Source: Bacteroidota bacterium (lineage in GTDB: Bacteria; Bacteroidota; Bacteroidia; NS11-12g; UBA9320). From it: DNA of 64,000 bases. Shown here piece by piece: positions 24,139-39,824 of the stretch; the first letter of the stretch is position 1; each line of letters begins with the position of its first letter. Both the position numbers and the translations under genes were made by a program. The notes beneath the pieces were generated by a model that was not told where the DNA came from, made no database searches, and was given only the letters and a program-made list of their open reading frames with translations. The stretch lies in NCBI GenBank assembly GCA_016124755.1, contig WGNA01000002.1, positions 124,001-188,000 of the forward strand, given 5' to 3'.

Positions 24139-26259
24139 TTAAGCAGGAATATCTTTGAGGCTGAGTCCGATGCGTTTTCGTTCGTGGTCAATATCGCGAA
24201 CACGAACTTTAACGAGTTGATCGATGTGGAGGAAGTCGGCGGGATCGGAAATGGCGCGGTCGGTGATCTGCGAAATGTGGATCATGCCGTTTTCTTTAAT
24301 GCCGATGTCGGTGAACGCTCCGAATTTTGTGAGGTTGGTAATTCGTCCCGGGAGAATCATTCCGACTTTCAGATCATCAATGGTTCGAATAGTTTCATCA
24401 AATTCGAGTGACTCCGCAACGCCTCTCGGGTCAAGTCCGGGTTTGTTTAATTCTGAGATAATATCCTGCAGCGTCGGAAGTCCGGTTTTTTCATTAACAA
24501 AATCATTGAGATTAATGGATTTGGTAATGGATTCGTTACCGATGAGATTTGAAATTTTGGTATTGTATCGTGTTGCCATCCGGCCAACCACGTCGTATGA
24601 TTCGGGATGAACCGCACTTGAGTCCAATGGATTGTCTCCGTCGGGAATGCGCAAAAAGCCTGCAGCCTGTTCGAAACTCTTTGCTCCGAACCCCTTCACT
24701 TTCATGAGTTGTTTGCGGTTGAGAAATTTTCCGTGGGTGTTTCGGTGATCAACAATCTGTTCGGCGAGTTTGGGTCCCACCCCGGAAATGTATTGCAGGA
24801 GGTGAGCACTGGCGGTGTTCACATTCGCCCCGACTTTATTCACAGCCGAAATAACGGTGTTGCCCAGACTGTTCCGGAGTTTATCCTGTGCAACGTCGTG
24901 TTGGTATTGCCCGACACCAATGCTTTTCGGATCTATTTTAACAAGCTCTGCCAATGGATCCAATAATCTGCGGCCAATGGAAACAGCACCGCGAACCGTG
25001 AGATCGAGATCCGGGAATTCTTTTCTTCCGGTTTCAGATGCTGAATAAATAGAAGCACCGGATTCGTTCACCATAAAAACCTGAACCGGCGAGTTTTTGG
25101 GCAAACATTGCCGGATGAATTGTTCGGTTTCTCTTCCGGCCGTTCCGTTTCCAACAGCGACCACATCCATTTTATATTTTGAAATAAGACTGAGAACAGA
25201 TTGTTTCGATTCCGGGATTTTGCTTTGAGGCGGGTGCGGGAAGATGGTTGAATGATGCAGAAGTGCTCCGGTTTCGTCGAGACAAACCAGTTTGCATCCG
25301 GATTTATAACCGGGGTCTAATGCCAAAACCCGTTTGCTTCCAAGAGGTGGGGCGAGTAATAATTGACGCAGGTTGTTGGCAAAAATCCCGATCGCTTCTT
25401 CATCGGCTTTTTCTTTGGCCTCCTGCCGGATTTCGGTTTCGATGCCGGGCATGAGAAGTCGTTTTAATCCGTCTTTTACAGCGATGGAAATTTGGTTGGC
25501 GGCTTCTGCATTTGAGCGGATGAAAATTTTGTCGAGCTTTTCTAAAGCAAAATCCTGATCGATTTCAATTTTCACTTTGAGCAGACCTTCTTTTTCGGCC
25601 CGCAAAATTGCCAGTATGCGATGACCCGGAAGTCTTTTTAAGGGTTGATCAAATTCGAAATAGTCTTTGTAATTCTGGGCTTCTTCTTCTTTTTTGGAAT
25701 CTACCCGTGATTTTATTACTGCGGAATTCTGATAAATCCTTCGCACCTGATTTCGGGCGGCAACGCTTTCACTCACCCATTCGGCGATAATATCGCGGGC
25801 ACCTTGCAGAGCATCGTCGGCAGATAATCCTTTTCGCGCAAATCGGTGTGCCTGTGCGATGATGTCGTTTTGTCGCTGAGCCATGATGATTTTTGCGAGG
25901 GGTTCGAGTCCGAGTTCGCGGGCAGCAGTAGCGCGGGTTTTTCGTTTTTGTTTGTATGGAAGATAGAGATCTTCGAGTTCGACCGAATCGGTGCAGTTTC
26001 GAATTCGTGAAAGGAGGTTGACGTCGGCAATTCCGAGTTCCTGCAGACGGTTGAGAACCTGCTCTTTTCTTTTTGCTAATTCTAAAAACCGGTTTCTTTC
26101 CGATTCAATTTTTTCGATTTCCACTTCATCGAGAGCACCGGTAGCTTCTTTCCGGTAGCGGGCAATGAACGGAATGGTGGCTCCTTCTTCGAGGAGTTTT
26201 ATAACGGCACTTACCGATTTTAACGGAATACCGGTTTTGGTAGAAATAAATGAATCCAA
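24139..26259 (-). CDS. tex: RNA-binding transcriptional accessory protein Tex
   Basis: Tex is a nucleic-acid-binding protein associated with RNA polymerase and transcription or stress fitness. The 706-residue protein has the full domain order: N-terminal helical Tex domain with GATIPFIARYRKEATGALDE (residues about 28-47), a YqgF/RNase-H-like domain with LALDPGYKSGCKL, helix-hairpin-helix motifs (SGVGPKLAEQIVDHRN, KVKGFGAKSFEQAAGFLR) and a C-terminal S1 domain (PGRITNLTKFGAFTDIGI...MIHISQI). It stops soon after the S1 domain and lacks the basic tail seen in longer homologues. It is monocistronic, flanked by repeat-rich DNA on both sides. Confidence 0.95.
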   Translation of the reverse strand: MDSFISTKTGIPLKSVSAVIKLLEEGATIPFIARYRKEATGALDEVEIEKIESERNRFLELAKRKEQVLNRLQELGIADVNLLSRIRNCTDSVELEDLYLPYKQKRKTRATAARELGLEPLAKIIMAQRQNDIIAQAHRFARKGLSADDALQGARDIIAEWVSESVAARNQVRRIYQNSAVIKSRVDSKKEEEAQNYKDYFEFDQPLKRLPGHRILAILRAEKEGLLKVKIEIDQDFALEKLDKIFIRSNAEAANQISIAVKDGLKRLLMPGIETEIRQEAKEKADEEAIGIFANNLRQLLLAPPLGSKRVLALDPGYKSGCKLVCLDETGALLHHSTIFPHPPQSKIPESKQSVLSLISKYKMDVVAVGNGTAGRETEQFIRQCLPKNSPVQVFMVNESGASIYSASETGRKEFPDLDLTVRGAVSIGRRLLDPLAELVKIDPKSIGVGQYQHDVAQDKLRNSLGNTVISAVNKVGANVNTASAHLLQYISGVGPKLAEQIVDHRNTHGKFLNRKQLMKVKGFGAKSFEQAAGFLRIPDGDNPLDSSAVHPESYDVVGRMATRYNTKISNLIGNESITKSINLNDFVNEKTGLPTLQDIISELNKPGLDPRGVAESLEFDETIRTIDDLKVGMILPGRITNLTKFGAFTDIGIKENGMIHISQITDRAISDPADFLHIDQLVKVRVRDIDHERKRIGLSLKDIPA

Positions 26260-26408: not shown

Positions 26409-26662
26409 GGCGGACGGTCCGCCTTCGCTTAGCTCTTTCGCTGTGCTCATTCGCTGAAGCTTCGGCGGACGAGGACGACGGACGGTCCGCCTACGCCTAT
26501 CGGCTTCGGCGGACGAGGGCTTAGGGATTGAAGCGGGCAGCGCGGAGCCGGGAACAAGTTTCGGAACCGGTTTGCGGAAGCGATTGGCAATGAGCTCATC
26601 GCAAGCCTGTGACGAATTGTGATCCGGTGAGTACTGCGAGCGGAAAGCGCGTAAAAAGCCCC
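26409..26662 (+). repeat. Dispersed GC-rich repeat element, copy 1
   Basis: This fills most of the gap between the divergent tex and cyclase genes. It contains two odd-centre palindromes, GGCGGACGGTCCGCC at 26409 and a one-mismatch copy at 26477, each followed further on by GGCGGACGAGG. A GGATTGAAGCGG block comes next (about 26525), and GAGCGGAAAGCG with an AAAAGCC tail closes the element near 26662. The same blocks in the same order, on the opposite strand, occur at 37898-38081. GC content is visibly higher than in flanking genes. Reading frames across it are artefacts. Confidence 0.75.
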
Positions 26663-26710
26663 AAACCAAAAATTCTGAAAACCGACAATTACCGATAATT
26701 TAGCCGGTGG

Positions 26711-28567
26711 ATGAGAAGCTTCGGGAATTGTATTGCGATCTGTTTTTTATTGGGAGCGTTTCTGTTTATGCGCGTACAAAAAAGTGTTGCACAGCCGGCG
26801 GACTCACTGTTGAACATTTGGAAAAATACGTCGGTTTCTGATAGTGTGAGGGCGAACGCTTATGAGCAGTATATCTGGGAAAACGAAGCGTATTCGCGCC
26901 CGTTTGAGGCGTTGAAGATGGCGAGAGATCTGCGGGATTTTTCTGAAAAGACAGGATATACAACCGGCGTACTGAAGTCGGCGAATCTGATGGGTGTGAT
27001 TTACAACAATTCCGGTAATTACGGAAAAGCGTTGCTATTGTTTGAACAGAATCTGGCGCTTTCGGAGCAGACGGGAAATATAAAGGGGGTGCTTTCGGCG
27101 CTGGGCAATATCGGCTTGATTTATCAATATCAGAATCAGTCTGAAAAGGCTTTAAATCAGTTTCTGCGAGTGCTGAAAATAGCGGAAGAATCGGGCGACA
27201 AGCGGGCGATTGCCACTACACGAAATAATATTGGGGTTGCTCGGATGAAATTGGAAAAACCGAACGAAGCCATGTCGGATTTCCGGAATAGTTTTCGGCT
27301 TTGCGAAGAGATACGGGACACAGTAGGGATGGCGAGAGCACTGAACAATATTGCGTGGGTTTATGAGAAAACCGGTTTCATCGATTCGTCGATCCGGATC
27401 AATCGGGAAGGTCTTCAACTGGAAACAATTGTTGGCAATAAAAAAGGGATGGCGTTGTCTCAATACAGTATTGGCTCGAAATATTTAGAATCGGGAAAGG
27501 CCGGGGAGGCGATAGAATGGTGCGGGGAAGCGTTCAAAATAAGTGAAGCGTCTGGATATATGGTGACACTTCGCGACGCATGTGACTGTTTGTACAAAGC
27601 CAATAAGGAAATGAATAATATGGTTGCCGGGCTCCGGTATCTGGAAATGAAGAACCGGTTGGATGACAGTTTAAAAAAAGAGGAAGCCGGGGAAAAACTG
27701 TTGCAGATGGAATTTCGGCAACGGGAAGCTGAAGACAGCATAGCTGCGGAAAAGGAGAAATTGATGGTGCAATTGAAACACGAAGAAGAGTTGCACAGAA
27801 CATCGATAATGCGAAACCAGTTGATCGGTTCGGTGATTTTATTGGTAATTATTTCGGTTGGTTTTTACCTGCGTTCGAGACTAATGCGCAAGTCGAGAAA
27901 TGCCATTGCCGTGGAAAAGGAGCGATCAGAAAATTTATTGCTGAACATATTGCCGCAGGAGATTGCGGAGGAATTGAAGCGGGAAGGGAAAGCACAGGCC
28001 CGGGAATTTCGGGATGTTTCGATTTTGTTTACCGATTTCAAAGGTTTTACGAGTGTATCGGAGAAAATGAATGCAGTGGAATTGGTGGATGAAATTCATC
28101 ATTGTTTTAAGGCGTTTGACGGCATTTGCGACCAACACGGAATTGAAAAAATAAAGACGATCGGAGATTCGTATATGGCTGCCGGAGGGTTACCGGTTGC
28201 ATCGGATGATTCGGCGAAGAAAACGGTTATGGTTGCTCTGGAAATGCAGGAGTTTATGGAGAAACGAAGGGCGGAACGAATGGCAAGCGGGGCTATACCT
28301 TTTGAGATGCGGGCCGGCATACACACAGGTTCGGTGGTGGCGGGAATTGTGGGTGTACGAAAATTTCAATACGATGTATGGGGAGATACCGTGAATACCG
28401 CATCACGGATGGAAAGTTCGGGACTGGCAGGACGAGTGAATATATCGCGCCAGACGTATGAACGAATTAAAAATGATAAGGAATTCGAATTTGAGCACCG
28501 CGGATTAGTTGAGGCAAAAGGAAAGGGAGAAGTAGAAATGTGGTTTGTGAAAATAAAAAAGGGCTAA
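26711..28567 (+). CDS. TPR-containing class III adenylate cyclase
   Basis: The 618-residue protein has an N-terminal signal or anchor helix, about six TPR-like repeats (residues about 70-300, with NIGLIYQYQNQSEKAL and NNIAWVYEKTG patterns), a coiled coil (about 310-365), a membrane helix (371-389) and a cytoplasmic class III cyclase domain (about 420-618). Catalytic residues are complete: metal Asp442 in FTDFKGF, metal Asp486 in KTIGDSY, adenine-selecting Lys480 and Asp555 (in YDVWGDTVN), and transition-state Asn562 and Arg566. It should make cAMP in response to a signal sensed by the periplasmic TPR region. The stop codon lies in the downstream terminator stem. Confidence 0.9.
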   Translation: MRSFGNCIAICFLLGAFLFMRVQKSVAQPADSLLNIWKNTSVSDSVRANAYEQYIWENEAYSRPFEALKMARDLRDFSEKTGYTTGVLKSANLMGVIYNNSGNYGKALLLFEQNLALSEQTGNIKGVLSALGNIGLIYQYQNQSEKALNQFLRVLKIAEESGDKRAIATTRNNIGVARMKLEKPNEAMSDFRNSFRLCEEIRDTVGMARALNNIAWVYEKTGFIDSSIRINREGLQLETIVGNKKGMALSQYSIGSKYLESGKAGEAIEWCGEAFKISEASGYMVTLRDACDCLYKANKEMNNMVAGLRYLEMKNRLDDSLKKEEAGEKLLQMEFRQREAEDSIAAEKEKLMVQLKHEEELHRTSIMRNQLIGSVILLVIISVGFYLRSRLMRKSRNAIAVEKERSENLLLNILPQEIAEELKREGKAQAREFRDVSILFTDFKGFTSVSEKMNAVELVDEIHHCFKAFDGICDQHGIEKIKTIGDSYMAAGGLPVASDDSAKKTVMVALEMQEFMEKRRAERMASGAIPFEMRAGIHTGSVVAGIVGVRKFQYDVWGDTVNTASRMESSGLAGRVNISRQTYERIKNDKEFEFEHRGLVEAKGKGEVEMWFVKIKKG

Positions 28568-36755: not shown

Positions 36756-37343
36756 ATGTCTTCCGAAACAACACCGTCAGGGTCTGAGATTATTAACGGC
36801 CTCATTCAATTATTCCGATATTACAAAACCCTTGGCGACAAGGCGATGCAGCAAACCCCGGATGAAAATCTTTTTGTGATTCACGATAAAGAAAGCAATT
36901 CGGTTGCGGTAATTGTGAAACATATGTGGGGGAATATGCTTTCGAGATGGACGAATTTTCTCACTTCCGATGGCGAGAAAGAATGGCGGCAACGCGATGC
37001 CGAATTTGAAAACGATATATCCGATTCAAAAGATCTTTGGGGAAAATGGGAGGAAGGTTGGCAGTGTTTGTTCAATGCATTAGAACCACTCACCGACGCC
37101 GACCTCAACAAAATTGTGTACATCCGCAATCAGGGTCACACCGTTCTGGAAGCACTTCATCGCCAGTTGGGACATTACGCTTATCACGTCGGACAAATTG
37201 TTTTTTTGTGCAAAAGCATGAGCGATAATTGGCAAAGTCTTTCGATTCCGAAAGGCGGCTCCGCGTCGTTTAACAAAGAAAAATTTGATCAGGAAAAACA
37301 TCGCCAACACTTTTCTTCCGAATTCACAAACGATAAAGAATAA
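36756..37343 (+). CDS. DinB-like protein of the DUF1572 family
   Basis: The 195-residue protein is a four-helix DinB/YfiT-type fold. Three histidines of the metal triad are visible: VKHMWGN, and the pair in LGHYAYHVGQI near residue 140. The opening, INGLIQLFRYYKTLGDKAMQQ, is typical of DUF1572. Members bind a divalent metal and some relatives are thiol transferases, but the reaction of this subgroup is not known. It starts 120 bases from the divergent sigma factor and is followed after seven bases by a lipoprotein gene, probably in the same transcript. Confidence 0.85.
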   Translation: MSSETTPSGSEIINGLIQLFRYYKTLGDKAMQQTPDENLFVIHDKESNSVAVIVKHMWGNMLSRWTNFLTSDGEKEWRQRDAEFENDISDSKDLWGKWEEGWQCLFNALEPLTDADLNKIVYIRNQGHTVLEALHRQLGHYAYHVGQIVFLCKSMSDNWQSLSIPKGGSASFNKEKFDQEKHRQHFSSEFTNDKE

Positions 37344-37350
37344 GAAACCG

Positions 37351-37785
37351 ATGAAGATTAAAGTCCACAAATTACCTGTGTTTTTGATGGCTGTAACTCT
37401 TGCCTCGTGCGCAGTTCAGAAAAAGGATGCCGACCGTATTGAATTAAAAGTTCCGTTTCCAGATAAAGTCGTTTTTGTTGCGACCAGTCTTCCTTCTTCA
37501 GAGGAAATTCCGGTTACAATGGTTCAGATTTCCATGGATGAATTTCTCTATACAATTGATACCGTTGCAGAAGCTTCCGTGATTCAAAAAGCACAATTTG
37601 CAGATCACCAGATTCCCGATACGGCTATCGCAGCATGTGGCGGATGGTATGCCGGTTCCGGAGATTATTTCTATGCAATAAAAAGCGGGAATGAAATAAG
37701 TGTTTATCAGGGCTGGCAAGACGAGGAGCAGGAAGATGCCGGTTATCACTACGAACGAACCCGAACCTTCGTTTTCGAAAAGTAA
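37351..37785 (+). CDS. Small lipoprotein of unknown function
   Basis: The ATG at 37351 gives a 144-residue product with a lipoprotein signal (hydrophobic run, then TLASC with Cys20). An upstream in-frame ATG would overlap the previous gene and bury the signal, so it is less likely. The mature domain, about 120 residues, has PDTAIAACGGWYAGSGDYFYAI and a C-terminal YHYERTRTFVFEK strand. It looks like a compact beta-rich periplasmic domain. I do not recognise the family. It follows the DinB-like gene at a distance of seven bases. Confidence 0.7.
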   Translation: MKIKVHKLPVFLMAVTLASCAVQKKDADRIELKVPFPDKVVFVATSLPSSEEIPVTMVQISMDEFLYTIDTVAEASVIQKAQFADHQIPDTAIAACGGWYAGSGDYFYAIKSGNEISVYQGWQDEEQEDAGYHYERTRTFVFEK

Positions 37786-37897
37786 ACAGAACAAGCATTA
37801 AAGTTAAACCCGTTCATATTTGTTATTTCCATGAATAGGTTTTCTACAACTCCGATCCCAATTCGTAAATCTGCGATCATAGATATATAAATGTGTG

Positions 37898-38081
37898 GCT
37901 TTTAACACGCTTTCCGCTGAAACTCCAGTCGGGCGCACGGGGCGTTGTTGCCAACAAAAAGAGCTTCTCCCAGTCGCTTTTTTGTTCGGCCACCGCCAAC
38001 CGTTTGCCCGCCTTTCGTAACCGCTTCAATCGTTAAGCCCTCGTCCGCCGAAGCTTCAGCGTAGGCGGACCGTCCGCCGCC
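37898..38081 (-). repeat. Dispersed GC-rich repeat element, copy 2 (inverted)
   Basis: Read on the minus strand it carries GGCGGACGGTCCGCC (near 38078), AGCTTCGGCGGACGAGGGCTTA, then GATTGAAGCGG (near 38025) and, at the far end, AGCGGAAAGCGTGTTAAAAGCC (to 37898). The same blocks in the same order form the element at 26409-26662, while the DNA between the last two blocks differs. That pattern suggests conserved ends and a variable interior. Confidence 0.75.
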
Positions 38082-38093
38082 AAATTCCGTCAG

Positions 38094-38161
38094 GGAAAGT
38101 AGGGGTAAAAATGTAGGGGGTAAGGCATGCCTTACCCCCTACATTTTTACCCCTACTTTCC
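38094..38161. repeat. 68-bp perfect palindrome
   Basis: Positions 38094-38161 form an uninterrupted perfect inverted repeat of two 34-bp arms centred on GCATGC, with no loop. The outer arm begins GGAAAGTAGGGG and contains AAAAATG and a GGGGG run. Symmetry breaks immediately outside. As RNA or single-stranded DNA it would form one long hairpin; as supercoiled duplex it could extrude a cruciform. It directly adjoins the dispersed element and precedes the three REP-like hairpins. Confidence 0.95.
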
Positions 38162-38177
38162 AACCCTTCAAATCCAT

Positions 38178-38400
38178 CCAACCCGAATCATCCACCGGAA
38201 TCTGTCCGTAGCGTCCTCGCTACGGATTTCATTTATTAATTAAATCAACCGCATGCGTTACCCCCGCATTTTTACCAAATACAAATCCAACCCGAATCAT
38301 CCACCGGAACCTGTCCGTAGCGTCCTCGCTACGGATTTCATTTTTTCATTCTCTTAATTTATTTAATTAAACCAAAGTCGGTAGCGGGGACGCTACCGAC
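38178..38400. repeat. Cluster of three REP-like hairpins
   Basis: Two 57-bp direct repeats (38178-38234 and 38287-38343, one mismatch seen) each contain a hairpin with TCCGTAGCG pairing with CGCTACGGA around TCCT (38205-38226 and 38314-38335). A third hairpin (38377-38400) has ten paired bases, GTCGGTAGCG with CGCTACCGAC around GGGA, and resembles the first two in the reverse orientation. Direct plus inverted copies in one intergenic region are the layout of REP/BIME clusters. No RAYT transposase is in the window. Confidence 0.8.
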
Positions 38401-38502: not shown

Positions 38503-39009
38503 TCAATCACACAATCCACTCAGGACTTCCAGCTCTTTGCCGAGTTGCGAACCGATTCCTCCTTCAGAAGAAACACCATTCATTAATATTCGGTTAAGCC
38601 AGCCATGAATCTTAACCAGCGTTTTTCCATTTATATGATCAGATTCAAGTGCGTATTCCTGAATCATCGTGAGGCGGTCATCGATATCCGAATGAATGGT
38701 GAGTTTGTGTTCGGTTGCATTTAAAACCCAGATCTGATCCACCGACAAACCTTCTTCTGTTCCATTATCATAGGTGGCAACCACATTTAACGAATCACCG
38801 TTGACAGCCACCCGACGTGCAGATTTTAAATTGAAAATCCATTTCCCGGCATTTCCCGGTGAGCTCATCACATTCCAAACCGAATCCGCAGAACAATTGA
38901 ATTCCCGGGTATCGGTAGCCTGATGTTCAGACTTTGCCATCAACATCGCGATTACGGTTCCTGCTGTGAGAAACAGCATAAAAATTAAAAACAGTTTAAA
39001 ATATTTCAT
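38503..39009 (-). CDS. SRPBCC-fold membrane-anchored protein
   Basis: The start at 39009 (ATG overlapping the upstream TGA as ATGA) is chosen over an in-frame ATG 43 codons earlier, which would lie deep inside the upstream gene. The 168-residue product has an N-terminal membrane anchor (FKLFLIFMLFLTAGTVIAMLM) followed by an SRPBCC/polyketide-cyclase-like domain. Its marks are REFNCSADSVWNVMSSPGNAGKW at the start and a long C-terminal helix. Such domains bind hydrophobic ligands; the ligand is unknown. It is the third gene of a tightly packed three-gene unit with the genes at 39006 and 39800. Confidence 0.7.
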   Translation of the reverse strand: MKYFKLFLIFMLFLTAGTVIAMLMAKSEHQATDTREFNCSADSVWNVMSSPGNAGKWIFNLKSARRVAVNGDSLNVVATYDNGTEEGLSVDQIWVLNATEHKLTIHSDIDDRLTMIQEYALESDHINGKTLVKIHGWLNRILMNGVSSEGGIGSQLGKELEVLSGLCD

Positions 39010-39824
39010 GAATTGTTCTTCCGGTAAAACACCCGGTAAATCATGTACAAAGTTCCGGGAATTACAATTACCGTAAGACGAAAAATGTTTGTGGAAGACA
39101 TGCCATTTGTTAGTGCCCAATTGATAAAAAATCCGCAAAAAACAATAAACACAATGGTCAATATTTTTGCGATTGGCTTTTCGTAAAACGTTTTTTCCTT
39201 TTTAATAGCACCTCTTTTTGTCGCCACTTGATTTTCCGGTTTTGTCGGTAATGCGGAAGCTTCATGAGGTTGTTCTTCCGGTTGAGAAATGCCTGTGTGA
39301 GTTTCTTTTTGGTTAATAACATCGTGCACAACCACATCCGGATTGGCGGCAATTTTTTCAAAAGCATCTGCCCATTCGGCAAATGCTATTTTATCACTTT
39401 TATCATCCGAAAGGGTAAGTTTCCCGGGAGCACTTTTTACAAAAATGTTCAGATAATTATAGCGTTGTTTTCCCCGGTTCATATCGTCTCCCCGCACATA
39501 AGACATCACTTCCGACCAGGGATAAAACTGTTCTCCCGGTTTTAATTTTTTCCAGTTGGGGGTTATTTGTCGACGGATTCCGCCGTCTTCTAATATGTAA
39601 ACCGTCTTGCCGGTTAACAGATAGATCAATCCGTAAACGATGCCAATAAAAAGTACGGTTACCACTATCACATTCAGACTCAGCCAAAAAAGCATAAACA
39701 TCACGCTCATGGAAATGCCAACCACCAACATAATGTTGGCGGCGATTCCTCCCCGCACAAATCCTTTCGTAACAAAAACTCCGTGATTCGATGCGGAATT
39801 TATTTCGGAACTTTCTTCCACCAT
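39006..39824 (-). CDS. Membrane protein with PH-like domain, unknown function
   Basis: This 272-residue protein has two adjacent hydrophobic helices (about 28-75), a cytosolic domain (about 80-165) resembling bacterial PH-type folds (VYILEDGGIRRQITPNW...YPWSEVMSYVRG), a charged Pro/Glu/Lys linker and two C-terminal membrane helices. The start lies 25 bases inside the end of the DUF5723-like gene, and the stop overlaps the next start by four bases, so the three genes are probably cotranslated. No catalytic motif is visible. The PH-like reading is a tentative fold guess. Confidence 0.6.
   Translation of the reverse strand: MVEESSEINSASNHGVFVTKGFVRGGIAANIMLVVGISMSVMFMLFWLSLNVIVVTVLFIGIVYGLIYLLTGKTVYILEDGGIRRQITPNWKKLKPGEQFYPWSEVMSYVRGDDMNRGKQRYNYLNIFVKSAPGKLTLSDDKSDKIAFAEWADAFEKIAANPDVVVHDVINQKETHTGISQPEEQPHEASALPTKPENQVATKRGAIKKEKTFYEKPIAKILTIVFIVFCGFFINWALTNGMSSTNIFRLTVIVIPGTLYMIYRVFYRKNNS

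Follow-up and report, generated by a model that had tools for sequence, protein, structure and literature searches.

Two intergenic sequences in the window, by which the whole analyzed stretch of 64,000 nucleotides is meant, carry the same short blocks on opposite strands, and they raise the question of what kind of unit is copied here. The original prediction described a dispersed element with conserved ends and different DNA in its interior, which would be either a mobile element or structured RNAs of one family, and proposed a search for further genome copies and for compensatory changes. Its four blocks, the palindrome GGCGGACGGTCCGCC followed by GGCGGACGAGG, GATTGAAGCGG and, at the far end, AGCGGAAAGCG, were all located in both copies where it had placed them and in the same order. 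They occur above chance, with two window matches for GGCGGACGGTCCGCC (shuffle mean 0.00), three for GGCGGACGAGG (shuffle mean 0.04), 15 genome-wide matches for GATTGAAGCGG versus 0 for a reversed-pattern control, and 19 for AGCGGAAAGCG versus 7. The features of the two copies and their surroundings are as follows.

24139-26259 (-) and 26711-28567 (+): divergent ORFs flanking copy 1 (ORF list)
26409-26423, + strand: GGCGGACGGTCCGCC palindrome, a separate repeat beside copy 1 (pattern search)
26464-26474, + strand: GGCGGACGAGG block of the neighboring repeat, first occurrence (pattern search)
26508-26518, + strand: GGCGGACGAGG block adjoining the 5' end of copy 1 (pattern search)
26516-26664, + strand: hairpin element copy 1, the divergent copy (cmsearch with model R1, 102.6 bits)
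26526-26536, + strand: copy 1, GATTGAAGCGG, conserved internal loop on its 5' side (sequence match)
26579-26596, + strand: conserved apical hairpin AGCGA...GAGCT, copy 1 (sequence and 16-copy alignment)
26639-26649, + strand: copy 1, AGCGGAAAGCG, conserved internal loop on its 3' side (sequence match)
37285-37785 (+) and 38503-39138 (-): convergent ORFs flanking copy 2 (ORF list)
37893-38041, - strand: hairpin element copy 2 (cmsearch with model R1, 148.4 bits)
37908-37918, - strand: copy 2, AGCGGAAAGCG, conserved internal loop on its 3' side (sequence match)
37962-37978, - strand: conserved apical hairpin AGCGAC...GAAGCT, copy 2 (sequence and 16-copy alignment)
38021-38031, - strand: copy 2, GATTGAAGCGG, conserved internal loop on its 5' side (sequence match)
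38039-38049, - strand: GGCGGACGAGG block adjoining the 5' end of copy 2 (pattern search)
38064-38078, - strand: GGCGGACGGTCCGCC palindrome, a separate repeat beside copy 2 (pattern search)

The copied unit is an imperfect, rod-shaped hairpin of ~149 nt, dispersed and non-coding. It was delimited with R1, a covariance model built from 16 copies of the same genome; both window copies are part of this training set, and their R1 scores thus match by construction. The limits of the element drawn by the original prediction are only partly retained. GATTGAAGCGG and AGCGGAAAGCG belong to the conserved unit, but GGCGGACGGTCCGCC and GGCGGACGAGG constitute a separate palindromic repeat that often adjoins its 5' end, because they lie outside the hairpin and GGCGGACGAGG adjoins that end exactly in only seven of the 16 aligned copies (with one mismatch in an eighth, L012, and missing at the other eight). 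The GGCGGACGGTCCGCC repeat is likewise absent beside half of these copies. The supposedly different DNA between GATTGAAGCGG and AGCGGAAAGCG does differ in its letters; its length and fold, however, are kept, as it forms one long imperfect hairpin with a conserved apex. The spacing between the two blocks is 113 bases in both window copies and 112 to 116 bases in the 11 genome copies with both blocks exact.

Other repeats are found in the vicinity of such copies. L024 lacks the 5' half of the element and has the GGCGGACGGTCCGCC...GGCGGACGAGG repeat there instead. At 38095-38165 (-) of the window, directly upstream of copy 2, a long and near-perfect inverted repeat GGAAAGTAGGGGTAAAAATGTAGGGGGTAAGGCATGCCTTACCCCC... 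belongs to another repeat family, and at ~38210-38400 (-) the repeated block TCCGTAGCGAGGACGCTACGGACAG represents a further dispersed palindrome, which also occurs beside copies L006, L007, and L020.

The architecture of the hairpin was deduced from an alignment of the 16 own-genome copies carrying both blocks (A1) and from folds of single copies in which both blocks were kept unpaired; these folds agree with one another. Excluded from A1 were L014 and L024, which comprise the 3' half only, and L004, L008, L022, and L023, in which one block lacks its partner. Going from the 5' end to the apex, the rod consists of an outer stem GGCTT/AAGCC, a 3-bp stem RCG/CGY, an internal loop, a long stem of free sequence, and the apex. 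The 3-bp stem closes the purine-rich internal loop, whose strands are formed by the conserved blocks GATTGMAGCGG and AGCGGAAAGC, and the apex of the own-genome copies reads AGC-GA-CY-NNN-RG-AA-GCT. The compensatory changes are strong. Within A1, 43 of the 48 pairs show two-sided changes compared with a shuffled mean of 28.0 (0 of 500 shuffles as high), and 81.7% of 764 cells are paired compared with 63.2% after shuffling. Sliding the 3' partners by 1 to 3 columns lowers the pairing to 31.6 to 42.2%, a comparison that favors the unslid structure since it was derived from the A1 sequences themselves. Among 79 copies from other records, in an alignment fitted to R1, two-sided changes affect 47 of the 48 pairs; here 1 of 500 shuffles reached the two-sided measure and 0 of 500 the other measures. 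The hairpin fold is real and is selected or maintained. Covariation alone cannot separate an RNA from a folded DNA strand.

Additional copies are present in the genome, where R1 has 31 matches spread over many contigs. Among the 14 inspected matches outside the training set (L079, L084-L096), 13 contain a recognizable GCGR...AGC apex, and L095 is disrupted; several group as a subfamily by their GCGTTAGGGAC outer end. The closest pair of copies lies 15 bases apart in opposite orientation (G000 C29 82965-83110 (-) and 83125-83272 (+)). Beyond the own genome, 38 relatives yielded one weak R1 match (G024, 5.5e-7), judged by eye to be a genuine, if divergent, copy (L097). In a sample of the phylum, R1 matches at least 24 of 395 genomes at 1e-6, own genome included, with seven candidates scored per genome. 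The two-block pattern occurs in at least 117 stretches of named genome contigs; 80 of the pattern stretches carry titles and comprise 71 from Bacteroidota, 4 from Spirochaetota (MAGs), and 5 others without an R1 match. R1 matched 74 of the 82 loci tested, being these 80 and two viral ones. A 51-bit copy resides at L244:7283-7442 on the viral-collection contig IMGVR_UViG_2841135142_000001, possibly a prophage.

With regard to its identity, the element belongs almost certainly to the Flavo-1 kind (Rfam RF01705), as a divergent member whose defined interior is longer and which formally falls short of the Rfam cut-off. RF01705 itself does not detect it in the own genome. At the gathering cut-off, it has no match in the window or in eight own loci; at E<=10, there is none in window 37860-38130 or in seven own loci; and at E<=0.001, there is none in the whole own genome (G000) among the 11 of 831 first-look candidates that were scored. 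The sole matches of copy 2 in a permissive search, RMST_5 (0.088) and bxd_6 (5.7), are both far below their cut-offs and were rejected. The assignment draws on outside loci: there the two models match the same places, their matches co-occur in genomes, and long and short forms alternate at one orthologous site. Four of 16 outside loci were matched by Rfam at the gathering cut-off, all by RF01705 and at the places of the R1 matches (R1 bits: L160 90.4, L133 28.4, L144 25.5, L189 24.7). RF01705 is found in at least 56 of 395 genomes, 45 of them over the cut-off (11 candidates scored per genome), and all 23 other R1-positive genomes are RF01705-positive as well. At one orthologous site with the same flanks, G354 contains the long, R1-matching form and G063 the short, RF01705-matching form. 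In addition, the consensus blocks of RF01705, GAUUGaAGcGG ... AGCGGAAAGC, which flank a stem in the hairpin, are present in the own-genome alignment. The interiors of the Flavobacteriaceae copies L133, L189, L202, L218, and L226 contain a hairpin like ATTGCCACGTC...CGCAATGACG, resembling CGTC-tagged REPs.

To date, Flavo-1 is an sRNA entry of Rfam without an assigned function. It was proposed by comparative genomics and is graded "y" as an RNA and "n" as cis-regulatory in Table 1 of Weinberg et al. 2010 (PMC2864571). According to the passages of PMC9723704 that concern it, Flavo-1 matches lie sense or antisense to transcribed regions and in many cases outside them, which argues against a consistent Flavo-1 transcript. 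The papers found to name Flavo-1 give no function for it in their passages on the family, and a literature search with the literal motif returned only papers unrelated by title.

Whether the fold acts as RNA or as DNA can be approached through the mismatches of its arms. An RNA can accommodate G·U within its own strand, and A·C on that strand corresponds to G·U on the opposite one. The arms of 133 copies were compared without a wobble bonus; as this set is pattern-derived, it probably includes some chance matches (L146, L155, L157, L183, and L187 carry the pattern without an R1 match). Herein, 91 G·T stand against 85 A·C mismatches, or 41 against 42 when two matched neighbors are demanded on each side, and 16 against 12 with three. 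The model alignments give G·T:A·C ratios of 122:118 and 40:40. A surplus of G·T is seen in the own genome alone (15 versus 5, arm against arm), in A1 (24 versus 15), and among the outer-stem pairs of the 79 copies (37 versus 8). Purine-purine mismatches are more common than pyrimidine ones in the 133 copies (A·G 121 versus C·T 47); therefore, one strand cannot stand in for the other, and the one that folds is probably that written here. As controls, 12 tRNAs show G·T:A·C of 19:0 in 259 pairs, a ratio biased by the finder program, which demands pairing. Six 6S RNAs show 6:3 in 80 cells on the RNA strand and 1:3 on pairs common to both strands; 6S RNA was dropped as a wobble control owing to its 7 loci, poor alignment, and too small counts.

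The genomic context was evaluated for 90 copies, obtained from the 133 by leaving out 14 inside an ORF, 22 near a locus end, and 7 far from genes. Of these, 25 are oriented with a tandem gene pair and 24 against it, while 25 are flanked by convergent and 16 by divergent genes. The promoter box consensus TAnnTTTG was sought within ~100 bases of 122 copies; it occurs 7 times upstream in sense orientation versus 6 times in the mirror position, downstream antisense, and hence shows no excess, with 14 occurrences upstream antisense and 20 downstream sense. None of the wobble, orientation, and promoter tests points to a transcribed unit.

Two orthologous sites were analyzed in another genus (g21), with 30 loci from 144 matching genomes for locus 1 and 30 from 149 for locus 2; at both, the labels long, short, and absent were assigned by eye from the sequences. 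Locus 1 comprises 7 long forms with the GCGAC apex, 16 short forms with other arms between the same outer ends, and 7 loci without the element. On a tree of the downstream flank (the neighboring gene), long requires 7 changes, short 11, and absent 6, and the forms cluster no better than shuffled labels. Well-supported sisters differ in form (L268 long and L274 short, L288 long and L291 short, L282 short and L283 absent), and L288 combines a long interior with short-type ends. An identical scatter may arise where species exchange entire intergenic stretches. L275 carries a perfect 67-nt palindrome, its 3' end being the exact complement of its 5' end, which is the only such case among the loci examined. 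Locus 2 comprises 25 long forms, 4 loci without the element, and 1 remnant; neither a short form nor an exchange of the interior occurs in these 30 loci. Pairing was counted in 21 of these 25 long forms; of their 882 cells, 839 are Watson-Crick, 15 G·T, and 8 A·C (G·T:A·C is 15:49 for pairs predicted on either strand together), and several pairs show an A-T/T-A exchange. Uncounted were L314, which is one base longer, L317 and L323, which the pattern missed, and L327, which was caught by the pattern and omitted. Absence of the element at orthologous sites may represent deletion.

Small palindromes lie inside locus 1 copies, for example, L270, L272, L291, and L292. L271, L293, and L323, from three genomes and both loci, carry a similar small hairpin at the same point of the 5' block (GATT^ACTTCA...GAAGTGG), and L297 contains a ~250-bp insert with inverted ends in the same block, which looks like an insertion hot spot.

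No enzyme could be assigned to the element from its surroundings. Clustering of the ORFs within 2.5 kb of 136 loci revealed no recurrent neighbor gene; the largest cluster, presumably of SusC-type proteins, covers 6 of the 136 loci at scattered distances from the element. The own genome encodes three Y1 transposases, none with an element motif within ~1.5 kb, and the tyrosine-recombinase loci inspected in it contain no element either. Neither a mobility enzyme adjoining the element nor a target-site duplication of it was found. The integron-integrase model gave a best match of 109.8 bits against a curated cut-off of 265, and matches below the cut-off also occur in 14 of 14 control genomes. Arrays of the attC type are absent among the 31 matches of the own genome.

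Taken together, the two window sequences are copies of a dispersed, non-coding hairpin of the Flavo-1 kind, and it is somewhat probable that this fold is maintained for a role as DNA and not as RNA. The DNA reading is put forward because G·T equals A·C overall, the orientation ignores the genes, promoter boxes show no excess, and the long, short, and absent forms are scattered at locus 1. Also in its favor are the few mismatches and the A-T/T-A exchanges at locus 2, the perfect palindrome of L275, and the published Flavo-1 matches in sense, in antisense, or outside of transcripts. It is weakened because no recurrent gene or enzyme accompanies the copies, locus 2 shows no exchange of the interior, G·T leads in the own genome (15:5), in A1 (24:15), and in the outer stem (37:8), purine-rich conserved loops are typical of RNA, absence may mean deletion, no target-site duplication was found, and the RNA controls are weak. 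One strand would fold out, most simply while single-stranded in replication, and the conserved internal loop and apex would be recognized by a trans-acting protein or by the replication or recombination machinery. New hairpin copies would spread to intergenic sites, and resident hairpins would sometimes be replaced by another family member or lost. Less likely, in line with the listing of Flavo-1 by Rfam and its discoverers, the copies are transcribed as structured small RNAs of one multi-copy family, with the loop and apex binding a protein or another RNA. The covariation in 43 and 47 of the 48 pairs would suit such a family, as would a purine-rich conserved internal loop, a feature typical of RNA, together with the apex on one strand, the G·T surplus of the own genome and of the outer stem among the 79 copies, and the cataloguing of Flavo-1 as an sRNA. 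It is made doubtful by the equal mismatches overall, the indifference to gene orientation, the lack of a promoter-box excess, the wholesale exchange of interiors at one orthologous site, and the published transcript maps, which in the passages on Flavo-1 do not follow it (PMC9723704). The original alternative of a mobile element or a structured-RNA family thus persists in part: dispersal and presence or absence fit mobile or exchangeable DNA, and covariation and the Flavo-1 entry fit RNA, but neither an adjoining mobility enzyme nor a target-site duplication was found.

Improbable is a decaying repeat with an unused fold, in which template switching between the hairpin arms restores complementarity and pairing is kept passively. 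The perfect palindrome of L275, the strand-symmetric mismatches, and the small palindromes inside L270, L272, L291, and L292 are what such a process leads one to expect; however, distant records share the unpaired blocks, the apex, and the constant length, and passive correction would erase the mismatched internal loop, for which L275 is the one case among the loci examined. Still more improbable is a known class of folded-DNA mobile site, either a site akin to integron attC or a REP/REPIN on which a Y1 transposase acts. The folded-strand logic, the dispersal, and the three Y1 genes of the genome speak for such a class, and the outer ends of the GTTAA-type copies are readable as RYYYAAC...GTTRRRY-like, the form of attC boxes. 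Against it stand the integrase match below the cut-off and the lack of arrays, the box-like ends that are not general among the copies, the Y1 loci free of the element, and a unit of ~149 nt that far exceeds the 20 to 40 bp given for REPs in the relevant part of PMC3733652. As a bolder version of the DNA reading, which is tentative and rather doubtful, Flavo-1 and the variant would not be RNAs at all; instead, they would be phylum-wide, interchangeable single-stranded-DNA hairpins, and an enzyme recognizing the internal loop (and the apex) would replace, insert, or remove entire hairpins at fixed positions between genes while the outer stem stays behind.

If the element acts as DNA, many sRNA annotations in Bacteroidota are wrong, and an enzyme working on folded DNA is to be found. 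The series of long, short, absent, and palindromized forms at an orthologous site makes this reading testable.

Compared with known systems, the element shares several traits with integron attC sites, which are recognized as a folded bottom or top strand and possess conserved ends, an unpaired spacer, and a variable interior. Like these, it has a folded strand, conserved ends, an unpaired spacer, and a variable interior. It differs by forming no array, by the lack of an IntI above the cut-off, by an apex that is conserved instead of variable, and by the lack of general attC boxes. With REP/REPIN sequences and their RAYT (Y1) transposases, it has in common the dispersed intergenic palindromes thought, according to the part of PMC3733652 that treats them, to act as folded single-stranded DNA; REPs are described there as 20 to 40 bp long with a GTAG or CGTC tag, whereas the element measures ~149 nt, contains a conserved internal loop and apex, and has no Y1 gene beside its copies. 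The closest relative is Flavo-1, with which it shares the same 5' and 3' internal-loop strands at the same position of the hairpin, the dispersed multi-copy habit, and common orthologous sites. The RF01705 model spans 76 positions and leaves the interior as an insert, whereas the own-genome copies, unreported by RF01705, form a defined ~149-nt rod that has a GCGAC...GAAGC hairpin at its apex and differs in its outer stem. The variant shows that the RF01705 model covers only part of the Flavo-1 family.
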